From a virus: a stretch of DNA of 20,613 nt. The notes beneath the pieces were generated by a model. It was not told the origin of the DNA. It worked only from the letters and a program-made list of their open reading frames with translations, and made no database searches. Location of the stretch: positions 1 through 20,613 of the IMG/VR virus record IMGVR_UViG_3300047457_000843; one strand, given 5' to 3'. Positions 8,050 through 15,911 of the stretch are shown here, one piece after another. How positions within the stretch are numbered: position 1 is the first letter of the stretch; every line of letters starts with the position of its first letter. Both the position numbers and the translations under genes were made by a program.

Positions 8050-11016
8050 TTATAGTCCAGCTGCAATATCACCCTTGTTTTTGAGTCTCAATGGAATGTA
8101 GATAAATTCAACACTTTTAACTGGTTCTACAGCTATATCCATATATAGCTCGTTACGGTCAATTCTTGCAGCAGTGTTATTTGTCTCATCACAGACTACA
8201 ATAAAATCATACAGAGCACGTTGACCTACTAACTCGAGTAGCAAGCTTTCTGCTGCGGACTTAATTTCTCTTCTTGTCTGTGCATCATTAGGCTCAAACA
8301 AGAATGGTCTTGATAAAACATCTAATTGTCTACGTAGATATGCAACTAGTCTAGCTACGTTAATTCTATCTAAGGAACTTGCGTTTCTAGCACGAGTTCT
8401 TTGACCATAGATAACTAGACCAACTCCTGTTAAATTACTAATAGGATTAATTTTTACATCGTCTAACACGTCACGTAGATTTTGTGGAACTGTAGTTGAC
8501 TTAAATTCGCCTTCAGAATCGACATAACCCACTGAGGTTGCGTTATCAACTGTGCCTCTACGTGTTCCTGCTGGAGCAAACCATTGATATGCCTTGGCAT
8601 CACTGTTAATAATAGTTCTTAATACCATGTGGCTTGCAGGAACTACAATGTTGTTGCCAGCATTATCTGTTGCGTAGCCGCTTGGATAAAACATACCCAT
8701 GTATTCATCATAGGTAGCTGCACCGATTTCATTTGTCTCTACAGCTCCATTGCTGTTTAGACCGTATGCATTTAAGGCAGATCCAGTTGGTTTCAATCTA
8801 AATGGTGTATCACCTACTACAAATCCTGTAATTCCTCGATCTGTATTAAATGCTACCATATTGCTAACTAGCTCAGGATATGATGGTGCTGCGATTAAGT
8901 TAAAGTTTAATGTATCTGTATCTCTAATGGCTACATTAGTATCAATTAGAGACTTCATAGCTTTAACAATAACTTGACGCTGTGCTTTACGTCCAAATAC
9001 ACCTGATCCATCATCGGCTGTAGTGTATTGTGCGACCCATCTATCTGCTTCATAGTTTGCCATCGACTCACTGTTGAATCTTAAGTTAAGTCCGCTATTT
9101 GCTAGAGTGTTAACATGTCCTGCTACGTATTTCTTAACATTGAATCCACTACGGCGAGTATTCCACAGTCGCATACCTCTTGGATATAACAACGGGTCTG
9201 GACAATCTGGATCTACATAGTTACTACTTCTCATTAAACCTAATACACCAGGAGTGTTAACTGTTCCTGTTGTATTGTATCGTGCATCTGCAAAGACCCA
9301 GCCATCTGGACTTGATTGATCAGTTGTATCTTGTAAAACCCACTTAGTAACTGTAGAGGTGTTATAAACATAAATGTTTTTACCGTAAGCTTCTAGATCG
9401 CTTGTATCAATCCAAATATCGCCTGTAACTAAATCACTTCCATCTGATTGTGTAGTTGGCTCTAAAGAGCTAACAATTGGACCATTAGGATCTGCATTAG
9501 GGAAAGCGTTTGCATAGCCTACCCATTGAGTTCCTGTGTTATACATAATATCAACCTGATCCAACACATTGCTATACCAAAGTGTTCCATCAACTGGATC
9601 TGTATATGGCGCTGTTGGTTTTGCTTCAAATACTAACGGTTTCCAGTTTGAAACTAGGAAGTCGGTTGTTGTGTTGCTTGCAAATGTATAAAGATTTGCA
9701 GTTCCACTTAAAGTAGTCATATCATAGGGTATTAAACCTAATAATGATCTTACTGCGCTATTTAGACCGGTAATTTTAATATTACCACCTAGCTTATGAT
9801 TCATTGTTAGTCTACCAGTTGATGAATCAAACGAAGCAGTTACATTGATTAATCCAGATAATGCACTGATAGCTGCTGGAATCATTGATCCTAATACTGT
9901 TGTAGCATTAGTTACAGTCATAATAACTTGCACAGGGGAAGTAAATGTTGAAGATTCTACTCTACTTTCTGCTACACTAAATGTGTATACTGACCCGTTC
10001 GTTGCATAAGCTGTGACTGGATCAGAAACGATTGTTGTAGCACCAGTTTTGCTTCTTCTCCAAAGTTTAAAGTTTGCTGTTTCACTTGCGTTATCATCAT
10101 AGTTACTATCGATAAAGAGAGATCCTACGCTAAGATTAGCACCACCTCCTGTTAGGTCTAAGTTATAGGTAGCATTTTGAACATTTCTATAGATAGGAGC
10201 AGATACTACACTCCAAGTTTGTGTGCTTCCGTTAAAGTATTTTACACTCCAGTTAGCACCATTAGATTTTGAAGTTGTTGTAATCCAAACTGATCCTGTT
10301 GCTGTTGCGCCGTTCCATGATGGATAGTTGTAGTGCTCGCTTATTTGAACAGACTTTCCTCCACCGAAGCCGTTTACTACTGCTTCCCAAGCATTTGATC
10401 CATTTTTATAATATACTCTAGAATCGTTATCATTCACAATAACAATGCAGTAGTCACCTATTTGTCCAGCGCTGACTAAAGGAATATTTGTAGGACTTGC
10501 TAAAGTTGATTTATTAGAATCATCGATAACAAGTGGAGTTTTTACTGTAAATTTTTGAGTAGATGCGTTCCATTCTTTAATGCCAAAAACTGAGTTAGCT
10601 GTATCAACCCAATAAGTTCCAGATATCGGATCACCTACAGGTTCTGTTGCTTGAGGAGCAAGTTCTGCTAAATCAATATCAGCTCTGACAACATAAGATC
10701 TACTGCTTACACCTAATGAGCTGTATGCTGCTTGTAGACCGTATTCATTTAATTCATTTCCATGAAGGGGATTACCACTGCTATCGGTATAGAACAATGG
10801 GGTGCCAAACGTATCAGTTAAATCTCGTTGGCTTGTGATTAACCATACCTTACCTGCATTGGCTTTGGTAGTTCCTGCGGCAATTGTTCCGCTTGGATTT
10901 GTTTTGTCTTGCGCAGTAGCTACGAAAACCATAGGCGCTGTGCCGGGAGCAGCCGGTGTGTAAAAACTTTCGTCAATAACCTGAACTACTACACCAGGTG
11001 AATTCAATGTTGCCAT
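8050..11016 (-). CDS. 18: Tail sheath protein with large insertion (gp18-like)
   Basis: A 988-residue contractile sheath subunit; T4 gp18 is 659 residues. The conserved core is split. Residues 1-~118 begin ATLNSPGVVVQVIDESFY and include NEYGLQAAYSSLGVSSRSYVVRAD; the C-terminal core runs from about 585. The latter contains DRWVAQYTTADDGSGVFG, the segment YGQRTRARNASSLDRINVAR near 870-890, and FIYIPLRLKNKGD at the end. Between them, ~residues 120-580 form an inserted, beta-rich region with about six degenerate copies of a Gly-x-x-aromatic ... Asn ... Trp motif plus another domain (~335-440). The insertion probably decorates the outside of the sheath. The ATG at 11016 has AGGAG 8 nt upstream and a late promoter core further upstream. 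The gene leads the sheath-tube unit. Confidence 0.95.
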   Translation of the reverse strand: MATLNSPGVVVQVIDESFYTPAAPGTAPMVFVATAQDKTNPSGTIAAGTTKANAGKVWLITSQRDLTDTFGTPLFYTDSSGNPLHGNELNEYGLQAAYSSLGVSSRSYVVRADIDLAELAPQATEPVGDPISGTYWVDTANSVFGIKEWNASTQKFTVKTPLVIDDSNKSTLASPTNIPLVSAGQIGDYCIVIVNDNDSRVYYKNGSNAWEAVVNGFGGGKSVQISEHYNYPSWNGATATGSVWITTTSKSNGANWSVKYFNGSTQTWSVVSAPIYRNVQNATYNLDLTGGGANLSVGSLFIDSNYDDNASETANFKLWRRSKTGATTIVSDPVTAYATNGSVYTFSVAESRVESSTFTSPVQVIMTVTNATTVLGSMIPAAISALSGLINVTASFDSSTGRLTMNHKLGGNIKITGLNSAVRSLLGLIPYDMTTLSGTANLYTFASNTTTDFLVSNWKPLVFEAKPTAPYTDPVDGTLWYSNVLDQVDIMYNTGTQWVGYANAFPNADPNGPIVSSLEPTTQSDGSDLVTGDIWIDTSDLEAYGKNIYVYNTSTVTKWVLQDTTDQSSPDGWVFADARYNTTGTVNTPGVLGLMRSSNYVDPDCPDPLLYPRGMRLWNTRRSGFNVKKYVAGHVNTLANSGLNLRFNSESMANYEADRWVAQYTTADDGSGVFGRKAQRQVIVKAMKSLIDTNVAIRDTDTLNFNLIAAPSYPELVSNMVAFNTDRGITGFVVGDTPFRLKPTGSALNAYGLNSNGAVETNEIGAATYDEYMGMFYPSGYATDNAGNNIVVPASHMVLRTIINSDAKAYQWFAPAGTRRGTVDNATSVGYVDSEGEFKSTTVPQNLRDVLDDVKINPISNLTGVGLVIYGQRTRARNASSLDRINVARLVAYLRRQLDVLSRPFLFEPNDAQTRREIKSAAESLLLELVGQRALYDFIVVCDETNNTAARIDRNELYMDIAVEPVKSVEFIYIPLRLKNKGDIAAGL
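9331..10629 (-). repeat. Degenerate Trp/Asn beta-motif repeats inside the sheath
   Basis: Within sheath residues 130-562 I see a recurring pattern. Copies are GTYWVDT...GIKEWNASTQKF (133-156), GDYCIVI...VYYKNGSNAWEAV (187-213), GSVWITT...VKYFNGSTQTWSVV (241-271), GSLFIDS...FKLWRRSKTG (298-325), GTLWYSN...IMYNTGTQWVG (477-500) and GDIWIDT...IYVYNTSTVTKWV (532-560). Spacing is irregular and identity low, so this is a structural motif rather than a recent DNA duplication. Confidence 0.65.
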
Positions 11017-11047
11017 TATACAATCTCCTAAATGGATTACTTTGATT

Positions 11048-11054
11048 TATTTAT
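11048..11054 (-). promoter_or_regulatory. Late promoter core for the sheath gene
   Basis: The minus strand reads ATAAATA (AATAAATA) 31 nt before the sheath ATG. T4-like spacing gives a leader of about 26 nt that contains the AGGAG site (11025-11029). Confidence 0.62.
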
Positions 11055-11078
11055 TACCATCTTAGAAAAAAATCCGTC

Positions 11079-11085
11079 TTAAATA
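11079..11085 (+). promoter_or_regulatory. Possible late promoter core for the HNH-like gene
   Basis: The plus strand reads TTAAATA (6 of 7 against ATAAATA), 30 nt before the ATG at 11116. It diverges from the sheath promoter about 25 bp away. It is a weak match in AT-rich DNA. Confidence 0.3.
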
Positions 11086-11089
11086 CACG

Positions 11090-11110
11090 GAAAAGGGCAC
11101 TGAAAAGGGC
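11090..11110 (+). repeat. Direct repeat upstream of the HNH-like gene
   Basis: GAAAAGGGC occurs at 11090-11098 and again at 11102-11110, 12 bp apart. The second copy supplies the AAGGG ribosome-binding site 6 nt before the ATG at 11116. The first copy could be an operator half or a leftover duplication. Confidence 0.7.
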
Positions 11111-11115
11111 GCAGT

Positions 11116-11451
11116 ATGCGTAATTTTTGTAAGAAATGTCAACAAAGGCTTGTTGCTATTAACTATCACAAAGCTGATAAAGTTTATTATAGGTCAATGT
11201 GCGATCATTGCTCCAAAGATCGTGGAGATGGGGTTCCTTTATGGGTAAGAGCAGGATATAAGAAAAAATTATCCTGCGATAGATGTAGCTTTTCTTCTAA
11301 ATTTCCGCAACAATTTAATGTTTATCACGCTGACGGTGATCTACAAAATTGTAGGCATTCTAACTTAAAAACTGTCTGTGCAAATTGCCAAAGAATTTTA
11401 GATAAAACAGAGATTAGATGGCGACGAGGTGATCTTCAACCAGATTTTTAA
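11116..11451 (+). CDS. Small zinc-binding HNH-endonuclease-like protein
   Basis: A 111-residue protein with four Cys-x-x-Cys pairs: C5/C8, C29/C32, C54/C57 and C88/C91. Between the last two pairs lies an HNH-like core, VYHADGDLQNCRHSNLKTVC (residues 69-88), which matches the common pattern His-x-Asp-Gly-[DN] ... Asn-Leu-x-x-[VL]-Cys-x-x-Cys. The N-terminal zinc pairs look like a separate zinc ribbon. It could be a small nuclease (some phage HNH proteins assist terminase cutting) or a DNA-binding protein; catalysis is not proven because the usual first DH/HH pair is reduced to a single His (H71). It is the only plus-strand gene inside the leftward block. Its last 38 bp overlap the 3' end of the kinase gene on the opposite strand. 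Confidence 0.8.
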   Translation: MRNFCKKCQQRLVAINYHKADKVYYRSMCDHCSKDRGDGVPLWVRAGYKKKLSCDRCSFSSKFPQQFNVYHADGDLQNCRHSNLKTVCANCQRILDKTEIRWRRGDLQPDF

Positions 11452-12061
11452 TTTCGTTAAAAAGATGATCAATGGTTTGATCATTTTCTATTGTGTAGTC
11501 AATATGATTTCCAATCCAACTAGTTTCACTAGTATGAATTTTTAATTCCGACATTCTTTGTTTACTTATTGCCCAATTAAGATTTGTAGGTCCGCAGTTA
11601 ACGTTGGCAGCATCTTGGAACCAATTAGGATCAGTCCCTCTTTTTACTCTCACTACTAATCCACCTGCATTATGGATGGCCTTTATTTCATTTGTAAATC
11701 TAACATCGCTGATTACAATGTTGTCTTTAGTTTTGCGAATTTTATTCTCAAGGCTAGCAATCCAGATATCATCGTGAAAATGATTTCTTAGAACTTCTGT
11801 CCCCCAATGCTGTAATACCCATCGAGGGGTTAGTTCCTTAATTTCAAGTCTTTCTGACCACCAAGTGTCTACTTGTTCTCGCCATTCCCGAGCTTCTTTA
11901 GTGCGTCCTTCTAGTAAAGTTCTATCCCATCCAAAAACCGCAGCTACAGCATCTTTTAAGGTATTAGCAAAAGAATCCCTTCGAAATCCGTGAAAATTTA
12001 CCAAATAATCTGCGGCAGTATCTTTACCTGATCCAATAAAACCTACAAACCCTATAATCAT
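11414..12061 (-). CDS. 1: Deoxynucleoside monophosphate kinase (gp1-like)
   Basis: A 215-residue P-loop kinase that would phosphorylate dNMPs to dNDPs using ATP in the cytoplasm, feeding phage DNA synthesis. T4 gp1 is about 240 residues. The P-loop GFIGSGKDT lies at residues 7-15 directly after the first strand MIIGFV. The lid/substrate region includes RWVLQHWGTEVLRNHF near residues 84-99, and the strand NIVISDVRFTNEIKAI near 114-129 carries the Asp-Val-Arg-Phe signature of this family. The ATG at 12061 is just before the P-loop strand and is the only sensible start. Upstream is a perfect TTGACA hexamer with a weak -10, suggesting host-type (early) transcription unlike its late neighbours. 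Its 3' end overlaps the HNH-like gene on the other strand. Confidence 0.9.
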   Translation of the reverse strand: MIIGFVGFIGSGKDTAADYLVNFHGFRRDSFANTLKDAVAAVFGWDRTLLEGRTKEAREWREQVDTWWSERLEIKELTPRWVLQHWGTEVLRNHFHDDIWIASLENKIRKTKDNIVISDVRFTNEIKAIHNAGGLVVRVKRGTDPNWFQDAANVNCGPTNLNWAISKQRMSELKIHTSETSWIGNHIDYTIENDQTIDHLFNEIKNLVEDHLVAI

Positions 12062-12082
12062 AGCACCCCCGAACGATGCTAT

Positions 12083-12111
12083 AATTTATTATCTTTAGAT
12101 TAGAATGTCAA
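12083..12111 (-). promoter_or_regulatory. Possible sigma-70-type promoter for the dNMP kinase
   Basis: The minus strand reads TTGACA (12111 to 12106, 6 of 6), a 17-nt spacer, then TAAATT (12088 to 12083, 4 of 6 against TATAAT). It lies in the 57-nt gap between gp13 and the kinase. AATAAATT overlapping the -10 is only a poor late-promoter match, so an early start is the better reading. Confidence 0.4.
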
Positions 12112-12118
12112 ATTTTTA

Positions 12119-12877
12119 TTAGCCGATAACAAATGTAAGGGGAGTTCCGCCGTCTTTATAATTAACAATGTCTTGTTCTAACATTTCTAGCTCAGCTTTA
12201 CCCTCACCTTTTAAGGCGGCACCGTTTAGCGTTGTGCCACCTTGTGGACTCGCAATAGTTCCAAATTTTTCTCTAGCTTCGCCAAGTATAACTTTACAGG
12301 TAGCAAGGGCATAATCCTTTAACCATTGGCCAGCAAACTGATCTTGCAATAAATTAAAGTCTGGTCTGTAGTTGTGAACCCATATCAATACTTCTTCTTC
12401 ACTTCTAGGCCTTTGCATCAATGTTAGTTTCTTTGTAGTTCTATTATATGTGAAATTTATATCACTACCAAACATTTTTCCTACTTGCTTTTGATAGCTT
12501 GCAAAAGCGTAATATGTAGCTAATCCACCCATATTTGTAGCAGTTAAGAGATAAGTGTTAGAGTAGGCTAAATTGAATGGTTCAAATAGGGTGCCACCTC
12601 CTCCTCCGCCAGATCTAGAACCTATGCTTCGACGAAAAATTTGTCTAACATTAGTAATTTCACTAGGTAGGGTATACTCATTTTGGTCAACTTGAACTGT
12701 TAAAAAAGCATAGCTCTCTTCTACTGCATTGCTACTACGCTGTCTAAACTTAGCTAAAGCTCGATCTATGGCAGTTTTATAGTGTGCAGGGTCTAATTCA
12801 ACATCAATCATGCCATCACCTAGCATAGATTTGATGTAGTCAACGACATTTTGTCTTTCTAGTTCGCTATCAGTCAT
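12119..12877 (-). CDS. 13: Neck / head-completion protein (gp13-like)
   Basis: A 252-residue protein from the ATG at 12877. I prefer this start to the ATG at 12892 (257 residues) because a late core GTAAATA sits exactly 5 nt before it, as at other genes here, and MTDSELERQNVVDYIKSML begins the recognisable fold. Features are an N-terminal helical adaptor part containing LDPAHYKTAIDRALAKFRQR, and YTLPSEITNVRQIFRR near residues 69-84. A Gly run (six G, ~94-99), NYRPDFNLL and LKDYALATCKVILGEAREKF (~185-205) follow, with a C-terminal IASPQGGTTLNG motif. These match the neck protein of marine T4-like phages as I know it; in T4, gp13 with gp14 joins head to tail. It diverges from gp14, whereas in T4 the two are co-directional. 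Confidence 0.7.
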   Translation of the reverse strand: MTDSELERQNVVDYIKSMLGDGMIDVELDPAHYKTAIDRALAKFRQRSSNAVEESYAFLTVQVDQNEYTLPSEITNVRQIFRRSIGSRSGGGGGGTLFEPFNLAYSNTYLLTATNMGGLATYYAFASYQKQVGKMFGSDINFTYNRTTKKLTLMQRPRSEEEVLIWVHNYRPDFNLLQDQFAGQWLKDYALATCKVILGEAREKFGTIASPQGGTTLNGAALKGEGKAELEMLEQDIVNYKDGGTPLTFVIG

Positions 12878-12882
12878 ACAGC

Positions 12883-12889
12883 TATTTAC
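12883..12889 (-). promoter_or_regulatory. Late promoter core for gp13
   Basis: The minus strand reads GTAAATA followed by GCTGT and the ATG at 12877 (spacer 5 nt). It supports that start. Only 1 bp separates it from the oppositely oriented gp14 promoter core. Confidence 0.58.
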
Positions 12890-12890
12890 C

Positions 12891-12897
12891 ATAAATA
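12891..12897 (+). promoter_or_regulatory. Late promoter core for the gp14-gp15-Nudix operon
   Basis: The plus strand reads ATAAATA (CATAAATA), then TACTACT, then the gp14 ATG at 12905 (spacer 7 nt). No Shine-Dalgarno sequence fits in between. Confidence 0.6.
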
Positions 12898-12904
12898 TAC
12901 TACT

Positions 12905-14092
12905 ATGCCTAGACTATCTCTATATCGTCCAGAAAAAGGTAATGATTTTAAATTTATCGATCGTGCTATTAATGAACAATTTCAAATTGGTGGCACAGAT
13001 ATACTTGTTCACAAATACCTTGGGCCAGTGACTCCTTTAGAAGGAGAAAGTTCGCCAACAGTTCCTGCTCAGCTTAACGAAATCCCTGAAGTTTCTATTC
13101 AAGACTTATTGTTGTTAGAAAATAGAGATAGAAAGTATGATACAGATGTTTATGTAATTAGAGGGATTTACACTCTTCAGGATATAGATTTTAATTTGAG
13201 TCAATTTGGATTGTTTTTACAAAATGAGAATATACTTATAAACTTTCATCTTAGATCAAGTTTCGAAGCTCTTGGTAGAAAAATTGTTGCAGGTGATGTT
13301 CTAGAGCTACCGCATCAAAAAGATGAATATGCCTTAGATAACAGTTTAGCTGCTTTAAAAAGATTTTATGTAGTTAGCGAAGTCAGCAGACCTGCTAGCG
13401 GTTACAGCCAAACTTGGTATCCACATTTGATTAGAGTTAAATGCCAACCTTTGGTAGATAGACAAGAGTTTAAAGAAATTTTAGATAAAGATTCAGGAGC
13501 AGGTGATGGATCGACTTTAAGAGATCTTTTAAGTGATTATCAAAAGAGTATAGAAATTAATGATCAGGTTATACTTCAAGCTGAAGCAGATGTCCCTAAG
13601 AGTGGGTATGAAACACGACATTTGTATATTGTTCCTAAGGAGGAGACATCTGGGTTAGTAGATACTTTAGATGTAAGCTCAACAGATATTGATGTCACTA
13701 GCGGATTAGATACTACCGCTATTCTTAATACACCTAACAAGAATTATTATGTAGGATATCTTACAGGGGATGGTGTTCCACCAAACGGATCGCCATACAG
13801 TTTTGGTATAACATTTCCGGAAAATGCAACAGAAGGTGAGTTTTTTGTTAGAACTGACTACCTTCCAAATAGAATGTATAGGTTCAATGGATCGCATTGG
13901 GTAAGATTTGAGGATAATGTTAGGATGACAATTAGCACCTTAGGGGATACACAAACTATCGATCAAGATCTAATTAGAAGAAAATTAAAAGCTAGCTTTA
14001 TAAACAATTTAAATACAGCTACTATAGCAGGTGAGATTATTCCAGAAAGACAGGCTCTTAGCAGAGTCCTTAAACCGAAGGCTGATGTGTAA
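12905..14092 (+). CDS. 14: Neck protein (gp14-like) with C-terminal extension
   Basis: A 395-residue protein; T4 gp14 is 256. The gp14 core occupies residues 1-~195: SLYRPEKGNDFKFIDRAI, the strand YVIRGIYTLQDIDF, and GRKIVAGDVLELPHQKDEYA near 124-143, which corresponds to the conserved Gly-Asp-x-hydrophobic-x-x-Pro strand. It continues with KRFYVVSEVSRPASGYSQTW (152-171) and a strand ending HLIRVKCQPLVDRQEF. The extra ~200 residues include a Ser/Asp/Thr-rich linker (~245-275) and one copy of the Gly-x-x-aromatic ... RFNGSHWVRF motif (310-336) also found in gp18 and gp15. Its role is in the neck complex that closes the filled head and joins the tail. It overlaps gp15 by 1 nt (TAATG). Confidence 0.85.
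   Translation: MPRLSLYRPEKGNDFKFIDRAINEQFQIGGTDILVHKYLGPVTPLEGESSPTVPAQLNEIPEVSIQDLLLLENRDRKYDTDVYVIRGIYTLQDIDFNLSQFGLFLQNENILINFHLRSSFEALGRKIVAGDVLELPHQKDEYALDNSLAALKRFYVVSEVSRPASGYSQTWYPHLIRVKCQPLVDRQEFKEILDKDSGAGDGSTLRDLLSDYQKSIEINDQVILQAEADVPKSGYETRHLYIVPKEETSGLVDTLDVSSTDIDVTSGLDTTAILNTPNKNYYVGYLTGDGVPPNGSPYSFGITFPENATEGEFFVRTDYLPNRMYRFNGSHWVRFEDNVRMTISTLGDTQTIDQDLIRRKLKASFINNLNTATIAGEIIPERQALSRVLKPKADV
13832..13918 (+). repeat. Trp/Asn beta motif in gp14
   Basis: Residues 310-338 read EGEFFVRT ... NRMYRFNGSHWVRFEDN. Spacing and key residues (Gly, aromatic, Asn-Gly-Ser, Trp) are like those of the sheath repeats. Confidence 0.6.
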
Positions 14093-15492
14093 TGGATTAT
14101 TTTTATGACGGGCAAATAAGAAGATATTTGTCTCAATTTATTAACGTGATGAGTAATTTTGCCTATAGAGATGCTAAGGGTAATCTTACTCGTGTGCCTG
14201 TTAGATATGGAGATATGACTAGACAGGTGGCACAGTTGCTAAGAAAGAACAGTGAGAATGCTATTCCATCAGCACCATTTATTGCTTGCTATATAAAAGA
14301 CATTCAATTTGACCGCCCTAGACTACAAGACCCTACCTTTGTCAGCAAAATACATATTAGAGAACGTGATATAAACACCGCTACTAATACCTATATTAAC
14401 ACTCAAGGTAGTAATTATACTGTAGAACGTATTATGCCTAGCCCTTATCTGCTTTCTTTAAATGCAGATATATGGACTACAAGTGCAGAACAAAAGTTGC
14501 AACTTTGGGAGCAAATAGTTGTATTTTTTAATCCTAGTTTAGAAATTCAAACTACTGATAATTATGTTGATTGGACTAGCCTTAGTGTGCTACACTTAGA
14601 AAGTCAGGTATGGACGACAAGAGCTGTTCCGCAAGGTGTTAACGAGGATATTGATATTTTAAGTTTAACATTCTCAGCACCTGTATGGATTACTCCACCT
14701 GCAAAGGTAAGAAAATTAGGTATAGTAACTAAAATTATCAGTAATCTTTTTGCTGAAAATATAGAAGGACCGATTAAGACTGCCTATGATAGAACAGGTG
14801 AATCTGCTATTTTTAATGATTTTAGCCCAGACGAAGAAGTTACAGTGACACCGGGCAACTATGAATTATTAGTGTTAAACGGAACAGCACGTCTTATTAG
14901 TCAAGCAATTTCAAACTCAGGAATTGATATAACTGATCCTAGGAATTCTACTTCGTGGCATACAATTTTAAATATGTATCCTGGAAAATTTAGAGCTAGT
15001 TTAACTCAATTAAGATTTGCTAAAGCTGGTGAGAATGAAGTAGTTGCTACAATTTCTTTAGATCCATCAGATGATAAATCAATGATTTTATCTGTAGATC
15101 AAGATACAATACCCTCTAATACTATTTTATCAGGAAGAGGCACTATTGATGCTATAGTTAATCCTATTACATATAAACCATCGGGGGTAACAGCAGGAAC
15201 AAGATTTTTAATTTTAGAAGGATTAAATCTTTCTCCAGATTTTGGTCAGCCCGGATACGACGGTCCTGTAGCATGGAAAAACTCCGACGGAAGCGATTTC
15301 AGGGCACATGCCAATGATATAATCTCATGGAATGGAACAAGTTGGGGTATTGTATTTGATTCTACAACAGCGACCGGTGTAATTTATGTCACTAACTCTT
15401 ATACCGGAACTCAGTATCAATTTGAAAACGGTGATTGGGTAAAGAGTTATGAAGGTGTATATCAAAATAAACTTTGGCGATTGATTTTGTGA
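14092..15492 (+). CDS. 15: Tail terminator / sheath stabiliser (gp15-like) with C-terminal extension
   Basis: A 466-residue protein; T4 gp15 is 272. Residues 1-~210 match gp15: YFYDGQIRRYLSQFINVMSN, then RVPVRYGDMTRQ, MPSPYLLSLNADIWTTSAEQ (115-134), EQIVVFFNPSLEI, and LSLTFSAPVWITPPAKVRKL (190-209). In T4 it caps tube and sheath and binds the neck. The remaining ~255 residues are beta-rich and unrelated to T4 gp15. The last hundred carry motifs resembling those in gp14 and gp18: GTRFLILEG ... ISWNGTSWGIVF, and GVIYVTN ... YQFENGDWVKSY. The ATG overlaps the gp14 stop (TAATG), implying coupled translation. The stop overlaps the GTG start of the Nudix gene. Confidence 0.85.
   Translation: MDYFYDGQIRRYLSQFINVMSNFAYRDAKGNLTRVPVRYGDMTRQVAQLLRKNSENAIPSAPFIACYIKDIQFDRPRLQDPTFVSKIHIRERDINTATNTYINTQGSNYTVERIMPSPYLLSLNADIWTTSAEQKLQLWEQIVVFFNPSLEIQTTDNYVDWTSLSVLHLESQVWTTRAVPQGVNEDIDILSLTFSAPVWITPPAKVRKLGIVTKIISNLFAENIEGPIKTAYDRTGESAIFNDFSPDEEVTVTPGNYELLVLNGTARLISQAISNSGIDITDPRNSTSWHTILNMYPGKFRASLTQLRFAKAGENEVVATISLDPSDDKSMILSVDQDTIPSNTILSGRGTIDAIVNPITYKPSGVTAGTRFLILEGLNLSPDFGQPGYDGPVAWKNSDGSDFRAHANDIISWNGTSWGIVFDSTTATGVIYVTNSYTGTQYQFENGDWVKSYEGVYQNKLWRLIL
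15187..15456 (+). repeat. Trp/Asn beta motifs in the gp15 C-terminal extension
   Basis: Two copies can be read. One spans residues ~369-422 (GTRFLILEG ... DIISWNGTSWGIVFD, with a long loop between halves). The other spans 429-452 (GVIYVTN ... YQFENGDWVKSY). The shared positions are Gly, aromatic strand, aromatic-x-Asn-Gly, Trp. Confidence 0.55.
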
Positions 15493-15911
15493 ATGAAATA
15501 ATTTGTAGTGGTGGATTTGTTTTGGCTGCTGATACTAAAAGGTTTTTATTTTTACTCAGGAACAACGGTAAAACTGCCGGGTCTTGGGGATTTGTTGGAG
15601 GTAAAAAAGATCCTAAAGATTTTACACCATATGACACACTGTCACGTGAAATAGAAGAAGAAGTAGGAAATACTAAAATTAGAAAAGCTATACCTTTAGA
15701 GCTTTTTGTAAGTAATGATCAACGTTTTCAATATAATACCTATGTGCTATTAATTGAAAAAGAATTTATGCCTGTATTAAATTCTGAGCATAGTGGTTAT
15801 TCTTGGTGTGAATACGGTAAATGGCCTAAACCCCTACATCAAGGCGTAAAAAATAGTTTAACAAATAAGATAACTAGGGCTAAATTAGAATTATTATTAG
15901 AACTTATCTAA
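15489..15911 (+). CDS. Nudix hydrolase
   Basis: A 140-residue protein from GTG at 15489, whose GTGA overlaps the gp15 stop. I prefer this to a TTG at 15474, which would add five residues and overlap gp15 by 19 nt. The core has SGGFVLAADTKRFLFLLRN, WGFVGGKKDP, then the Nudix helix SREIEEEVG, which keeps the Arg-Glu and Glu-Glu metal ligands. The residue where the box usually has Glu (GX5E) is Asp in KDPKDF, and the loop is one residue longer than the standard 23-residue box. Nudix enzymes hydrolyse nucleoside diphosphates linked to another group; the substrate (oxidised dNTP, NDP-sugar, RNA cap or signalling nucleotide) cannot be told. It is odd as the third gene of a neck operon. The last 15 bp overlap the opposing glycosyltransferase gene. 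Confidence 0.85.
   Translation: MNEIICSGGFVLAADTKRFLFLLRNNGKTAGSWGFVGGKKDPKDFTPYDTLSREIEEEVGNTKIRKAIPLELFVSNDQRFQYNTYVLLIEKEFMPVLNSEHSGYSWCEYGKWPKPLHQGVKNSLTNKITRAKLELLLELI

Follow-up and report, generated by a model that had tools for sequence, protein, structure and literature searches.

Sequence profiles relate units of a tail sheath insertion and a gp14-like neck-region protein to a widespread phage-fiber unit

Four short units in the insertion of a contractile tail sheath protein (s1, s3, s5, and s6) and one unit in a gp14-like protein belong, as judged by sequence profiles, to a widespread and unnamed unit of phage fibers, because a profile grown on fiber proteins alone recovers the units of both proteins. 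The window, i.e., the whole stretch of DNA that was analyzed, is a virus record of 20.6 kb (20,613 nucleotides). That jumbo phages use several copies of this unit in the insertion of a contractile sheath and in a neck-region protein appears to be new; no description of the unit in sheath or neck proteins was found in the literature, the coverage of which was incomplete.

The tail sheath protein (988 aa, 8050..11016, minus strand) matched PHROG 10581 tail sheath (E 4.3e-219), Pfam Phage_sheath_1C (E 7.5e-16), and T4 gp18 (E 2.1e-20). On the plus strand, a gp14-like virion protein (395 aa, 12905..14092; PHROG 11591 virion structural protein, E 1.2e-81) adjoins the gp15 tail terminator (466 aa, 14092..15492), which matched Pfam T4-gp15_tss (PF16724, E 4.5e-22) and, structurally, T4 gp15 (4huh, Z 15.3 over 165 aa, 3.8 Å). 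The identities of the sheath and gp15 are secure. The name gp14 derives from the position beside gp15 alone: a profile of the gp14-like family found no match in the T4 genome, and its hhalign probability against T4 gp14 was 0.55%. The nearest named relatives of all three proteins were found in jumbo phages, namely Pseudomonas phage PA5oct, Sinorhizobium phage Phosso, Agrobacterium phage Atu_ph07, and Salicola phage SCTP-2, with the 121Q/RaK2 group being more distant. The PA5oct homologs of the three proteins are virion proteins, as determined by mass spectrometry. The ORF at 15474-15911 resembles a NUDIX gene, and the gene order gp14-gp15-NUDIX (12905-15911) is kept in PA5oct, 121Q, Hallingskeid, and Vibrio phage 2.275.O. 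A small Cys-rich ORF at 11116-11451, HNH/zinc-finger-like by sight, lies between the sheath gene and a dNMP kinase-like gene.

The preliminary description reported a recurring Trp/Asn motif in the sheath (about six copies), gp14 (one), and the gp15 extension (about two). When searched literally as G..[WFY][VIYL]...[WFY].[WYF]N[GAT][ST]...W, this pattern had just two occurrences, one in the sheath (aa 532) and one in gp14 (aa 311). Shuffling of the sheath and gp14 sequences never produced it, and the shuffled fiber protein of the window gave a mean of 0.002. About 80 relatives of each protein were collected from IMG/VR and aligned, and the individual segments were tested; only segments without overlap to a motif segment were counted as controls. 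The unit that emerged has ~32 residues and the consensus P-x-x-G-[DTQ]-[LFY]-[WF]-phi-(D/R)T, a turn, phi-[YKF]-x-[YWF]-[ND]-G, and then W-[VI].

The sheath units lie in an insertion of ~aa 115-575 (9292..10674, minus strand). An iterated profile seeded with s1 (aa 124-160, 10537..10647, TEPVGDPISGTYWVDTANSVFGIKEWNASTQKFTVKT), which was also the seed of the pooled profile, found s6 (aa 528-563, 9328..9435, DLVTGDIWIDTSDLEAYGKNIYVYNTSTVTKWVLQD; i-E 8.5e-11), s5 (aa 468-499, 9520..9615, TAPYTDPVDGTLWYSNVLDQVDIMYNTGTQWV; i-E 5e-9), and s3 (aa 236-271, 10204..10311, GATATGSVWITTTSKSNGANWSVKYFNGSTQTWSVV; i-E 2.5e-7) in the same protein. Four of the roughly six proposed sheath copies were thus recovered by profile, but the remaining two places, s2 (~aa 185-215, 10372..10464) and s4 (~aa 297-332, 10021..10128), were not found by the s1 profile, stayed at control level, and do not count as sequence-proven copies. 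Exactly four copies were detected in 62 of the 70 full-length sheath relatives by the s1 profile, which was itself trained on those sheaths. PA5oct has three copies and 121Q one that is recognizable. The insertion as a whole matched only jumbo-phage sheaths.

The relationship to fibers was established with a profile that had seen none of the three families. Its seed consisted of three natural copies from the fibers of a Geobacillus siphophage and cyanophage KBS-S-2A, and it was grown only in proteins cleared of sheath, gp14, and gp15 relatives, with a gp14 C-terminal fragment (L179) also removed. At i-E <0.001, this fiber-only profile detected the unit in 34 of the 81 gp14 relatives, as well as ten units in sheaths, with no match in reversed sequences; at i-E 0.1, the counts rose to 64 gp14 and 51 sheath units, still with none in reversed sequences. 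Single-sequence matches in sheath relatives reached an i-E of 2.6e-5. In profile-profile comparison with the fiber-only profile, s5 scored 97%, s6 96%, gp14 95%, s1 91%, and s3 81%, whereas controls without motif overlap reached at most about 5%, and s2, s4 (both 0.9-2.5%), and both gp15 stretches at most 3%.

The search also worked in the opposite direction, as the sheath profile matched fiber-like proteins in other loci. Using tblastn with one fiber copy, the unit was found in 95 phage records, mostly of cyanophages, in proteins annotated among others as tail fiber, baseplate wedge, and tail collar fiber. It is present in fiber-region and baseplate proteins of P-SSM2 and S-CREM2. The concern that the motif might be equally common in unrelated beta-rich proteins was borne out within phage tail and fiber proteins only; among 177,635 PDB sequences, a profile of 25 chosen copies found no solved protein below E 0.5. 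The sequence RVWEFNGNWI of the window's fiber, which had been listed as related, was matched by none of the profiles. In another locus, Pfam Cyclophil_like2 (PF18050) scored the fiber unit of an ORF (L174, 2332-5577; aa 596-630) with E 1.7e-11. We take this match as a local resemblance; the unit, or a mimic of it, may be part of the Pfam model.

The gp14 unit (aa 303-334, 13811..13906, plus strand, TFPENATEGEFFVRTDYLPNRMYRFNGSHWVR) bears out the motif copy proposed for the C-terminal extension of this protein. In the window protein, it was matched with an i-E of 0.0089 by the fiber-only profile and 0.0049 by the seed-only profile, and the fiber-only values in relatives went down to 1.5e-7. The copy number was one in 78 relatives but three in 121Q and Hallingskeid. 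A consensus of the gp14 C-terminus matched the tail fiber of a Geobacillus siphophage (51% identity over 33 aa, E 0.001), as well as Paenibacillus tail proteins and the tail fiber of cyanophage KBS-S-2A; this consensus was written by hand, and its matches are not counted as independent proof.

The sheath insertion was modeled with AlphaFold2 (aa 108-600; mean pLDDT 83.7, pTM 0.70). According to DSSP, the model has three short strands in the expected order at all six places proposed for the sheath, with the first strand of s5 only weakly predicted. The predicted strands are 135-138, 146-150, and 155-159 in s1; 189-192, 199-204, and 210-212 in s2; and 300-303, 315-321, and 327-330 in s4. On the model, the strand order is consistent with a three-strand layout at the six places. 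Foldseek comparison with viral models (BFVD) returned fiber and baseplate proteins over 53-79 columns at 22-36% identity (E 0.05-0.2), and we regard these model-based matches as suggestive only.

The model also contains a flagellin/FliD-like domain (aa 321-459, 9640..10056, minus strand), the start of which overlaps the end of s4. In structural terms, this part of the contractile sheath resembles the D2 domain of flagellin and FliD (VIA-align, FliD 6iwy, Z 7.2, 103 aa, 2.6 Å). The first ~18 entries of the fold-library comparison of the insertion were all flagellar proteins or phage sheath, at a level (Z ~7) that is common by chance. The assignment is supported by Pfam Flagellin_IN, which scored above its cut-off in the Phosso sheath. 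The sheath of cyanophage A-1(L) (8kee) aligned to the same domain with Z 6.3. Ig folds appeared with Z about 3 and only over ~aa 321-460. As matches to the flagellin-like domain and to antibodies took up the fold-library list of the sheath, and terminator cores that of gp15, the units themselves were barely probed by this comparison.

The gp15 protein consists of a core (aa 1-224) and an extension (aa 225-466), which AlphaFold2 predicted with pLDDT ~81-92 over most of aa 250-466. Two stretches of the extension (aa 369-424 and 429-452; 15196..15447, plus strand) have an analogous predicted layout, with strands 371-374/410-413/418-422 and 431-435/441-445/448-451 (pLDDT 84-92). The structure prediction thus agrees with a three-strand layout at both places, as a likeness of topology only. 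As a carrier of the motif, the extension did not stand up: both places scored 2-3% in profile-profile comparison, the same as controls, and the best i-E of the fiber-only profile in a gp15 relative was 0.55. The pooled sheath profile gave 33% against the first gp15 stretch; this was not repeated by the fiber-only profile, and gp15 was rejected as a sequence member. The DUF2793 tail fiber domain was absent from the Pfam matches (E<=5) of 32 gp15 relatives. With the C-terminus of Phosso gp15 as the query, a virion protein of Bacillus phages PBS1/AR9 was matched (E 0.003-0.02). The gene of this protein (gp196; L231, 2321-3199) lies beside the tail spike gene in AR9. Because of this match and this location, the gp15 C-terminus gives the impression of an added part that moves independently.

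The placement of the motif in sequence beyond the T4-length core was confirmed for the sheath and gp15, as T4 gp18, gp14, and gp15 lack the unit; the gp14-like family, having no recognizable kinship to T4 gp14, offers no T4 core for this comparison. The occurrence in cyanophage gp18 and gp15, which the preliminary description had suggested checking, was not borne out in P-SSM2 and S-CREM2, where profiles found no unit in the sheath or gp15. In the window, the unit lies in the added sequence of the sheath and the gp14-like protein, probably facing outward.

We consider it reasonably probable that the units are compact outward structural tiles, widely used in fibers and the outer tail, rather than a clasp specific to the neck. 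Each sheath place would form a beta1-beta2-beta3 meander, with the conserved Gly and aromatic residues making up the small core of each unit. Strung together, the sheath units may form a rigid arm that points away from the tube on every subunit and is interrupted by the flagellin/FliD-like domain. The gp14 unit or units would protrude from the neck protein as a knob, and the gp15 extension would be a separately acquired addition of similar layout. Such tiles would add both thickness and decoration to the outside of the tail, perhaps with weak contacts to fibers, hairs, or the host. In related hairy jumbo phages, filaments and elongated decorations are present at the collar and tail end, and hairs along the sheath (PMC7247149; PMC5259590). 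The sheath arms might serve as anchoring points for hairs or decorations; 121Q, however, which is related to these phages, has only a single recognizable sheath copy.

The preliminary description proposed that the same module had been recruited into proteins that contact each other. The sheath insertion does share a unit with the gp14-like protein, but this does not extend to gp15, nor to contact as the cause. Recruitment of one module into all three proteins on account of their contact, where it would hold neck and sheath decorations together, would agree with the similar three-strand layout of the gp15 extension and with the collar, tail-end, and sheath decorations of related jumbo phages (PMC7247149; PMC5259590). 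Nevertheless, we consider it improbable, as gp15 is at control level with the fiber-only profile, the unit is no rarer in fiber and baseplate proteins that make no contact with the neck, and 121Q retains so little of the sheath array despite its kinship with hairy phages. Since the unit occurs in cyanophage tail fibers, baseplate wedge, and tail collar fibers and in siphophage tail fibers, its sharing between neck and sheath needs no special cause. Common origin itself might be doubted, because a unit of ~32 aa is short and because s2, s4, and gp15 have the layout without the sequence similarity; short G..W...W meanders could then have arisen repeatedly in Trp/Gly/Asn-rich beta proteins. We give such convergence little credence for s1, s3, s5, s6, and gp14, whose profile matches are far above those of reversed sequences and control segments, and no solved protein from outside phages was matched.

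Weak binding of host glycans or surface polymers, in the manner of Ig-like and other phage surface domains, would suit an aromatic-rich, outward unit that occurs in fibers, and added sheath domains have been proposed as adsorption aids (PMC9230969). The Trp residue is, however, invariant across 25 sheath inserts that share 36-67% identity, and this invariance fits a structural core better than a variable receptor site; the other aromatic positions are likewise invariant across relatives. No Pfam CBM family was found in the window proteins at E<=1, and CBM96 in 121Q gp14 (E 0.11) was below the cut-off. We regard glycan binding as unlikely. The units could also act as self-matching docking tiles, with unit-bearing fibers or hairs folding back onto the sheath or neck and being held there through contacts between units. 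Cyanophage A-1(L) has a tail fiber arm that runs along a groove on the sheath (PMC10966104). We regard this docking as very improbable. Structural tiles of the outer tail remain the reading that we prefer. The sharing of the unit shows that additions to the sheath and neck proteins of jumbo phages can draw on the repertoire of small units used in tail fibers. The unit provides a sequence handle for the annotation of sheath insertions and neck proteins that Pfam leaves unnamed, and it marks a candidate surface for the attachment of hairs or fibers in hairy jumbo phages.

The sheath insertion resembles the additional domains of other jumbo-phage sheath proteins, which in known structures are located away from the tube (Evseev et al. 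2022, PMC9230969): in both cases, extra beta-rich domains are inserted into a conserved sheath core. The domains described there are mostly Ig-like sandwiches, whereas the window sheath is predicted to carry small three-strand units and a flagellin/FliD-like domain. The gp15 core corresponds to the T4 gp15 tail terminator (PF16724); unlike T4 gp15, the window protein has ~240 extra residues, and their C-terminal stretch recurs in the AR9/PBS1 virion proteins. For the unit itself, the closest counterparts are short unnamed units within PHROG 3304 'L-shaped tail fiber protein assembly' (~125-170) and PHROG 9729 'tail fiber protein' (~576-630). These have the pattern P-x-x-G-x-[LF]-W...YY/RW-x-DG...W in common with the window unit, and the sheath and fiber profiles find each other's units, with the fiber profile also finding that of gp14. 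In these PHROGs, the unit sits in fibers and collagen-like proteins, whereas in the window it occurs in the insertion of a contractile sheath and in the neck-region protein.
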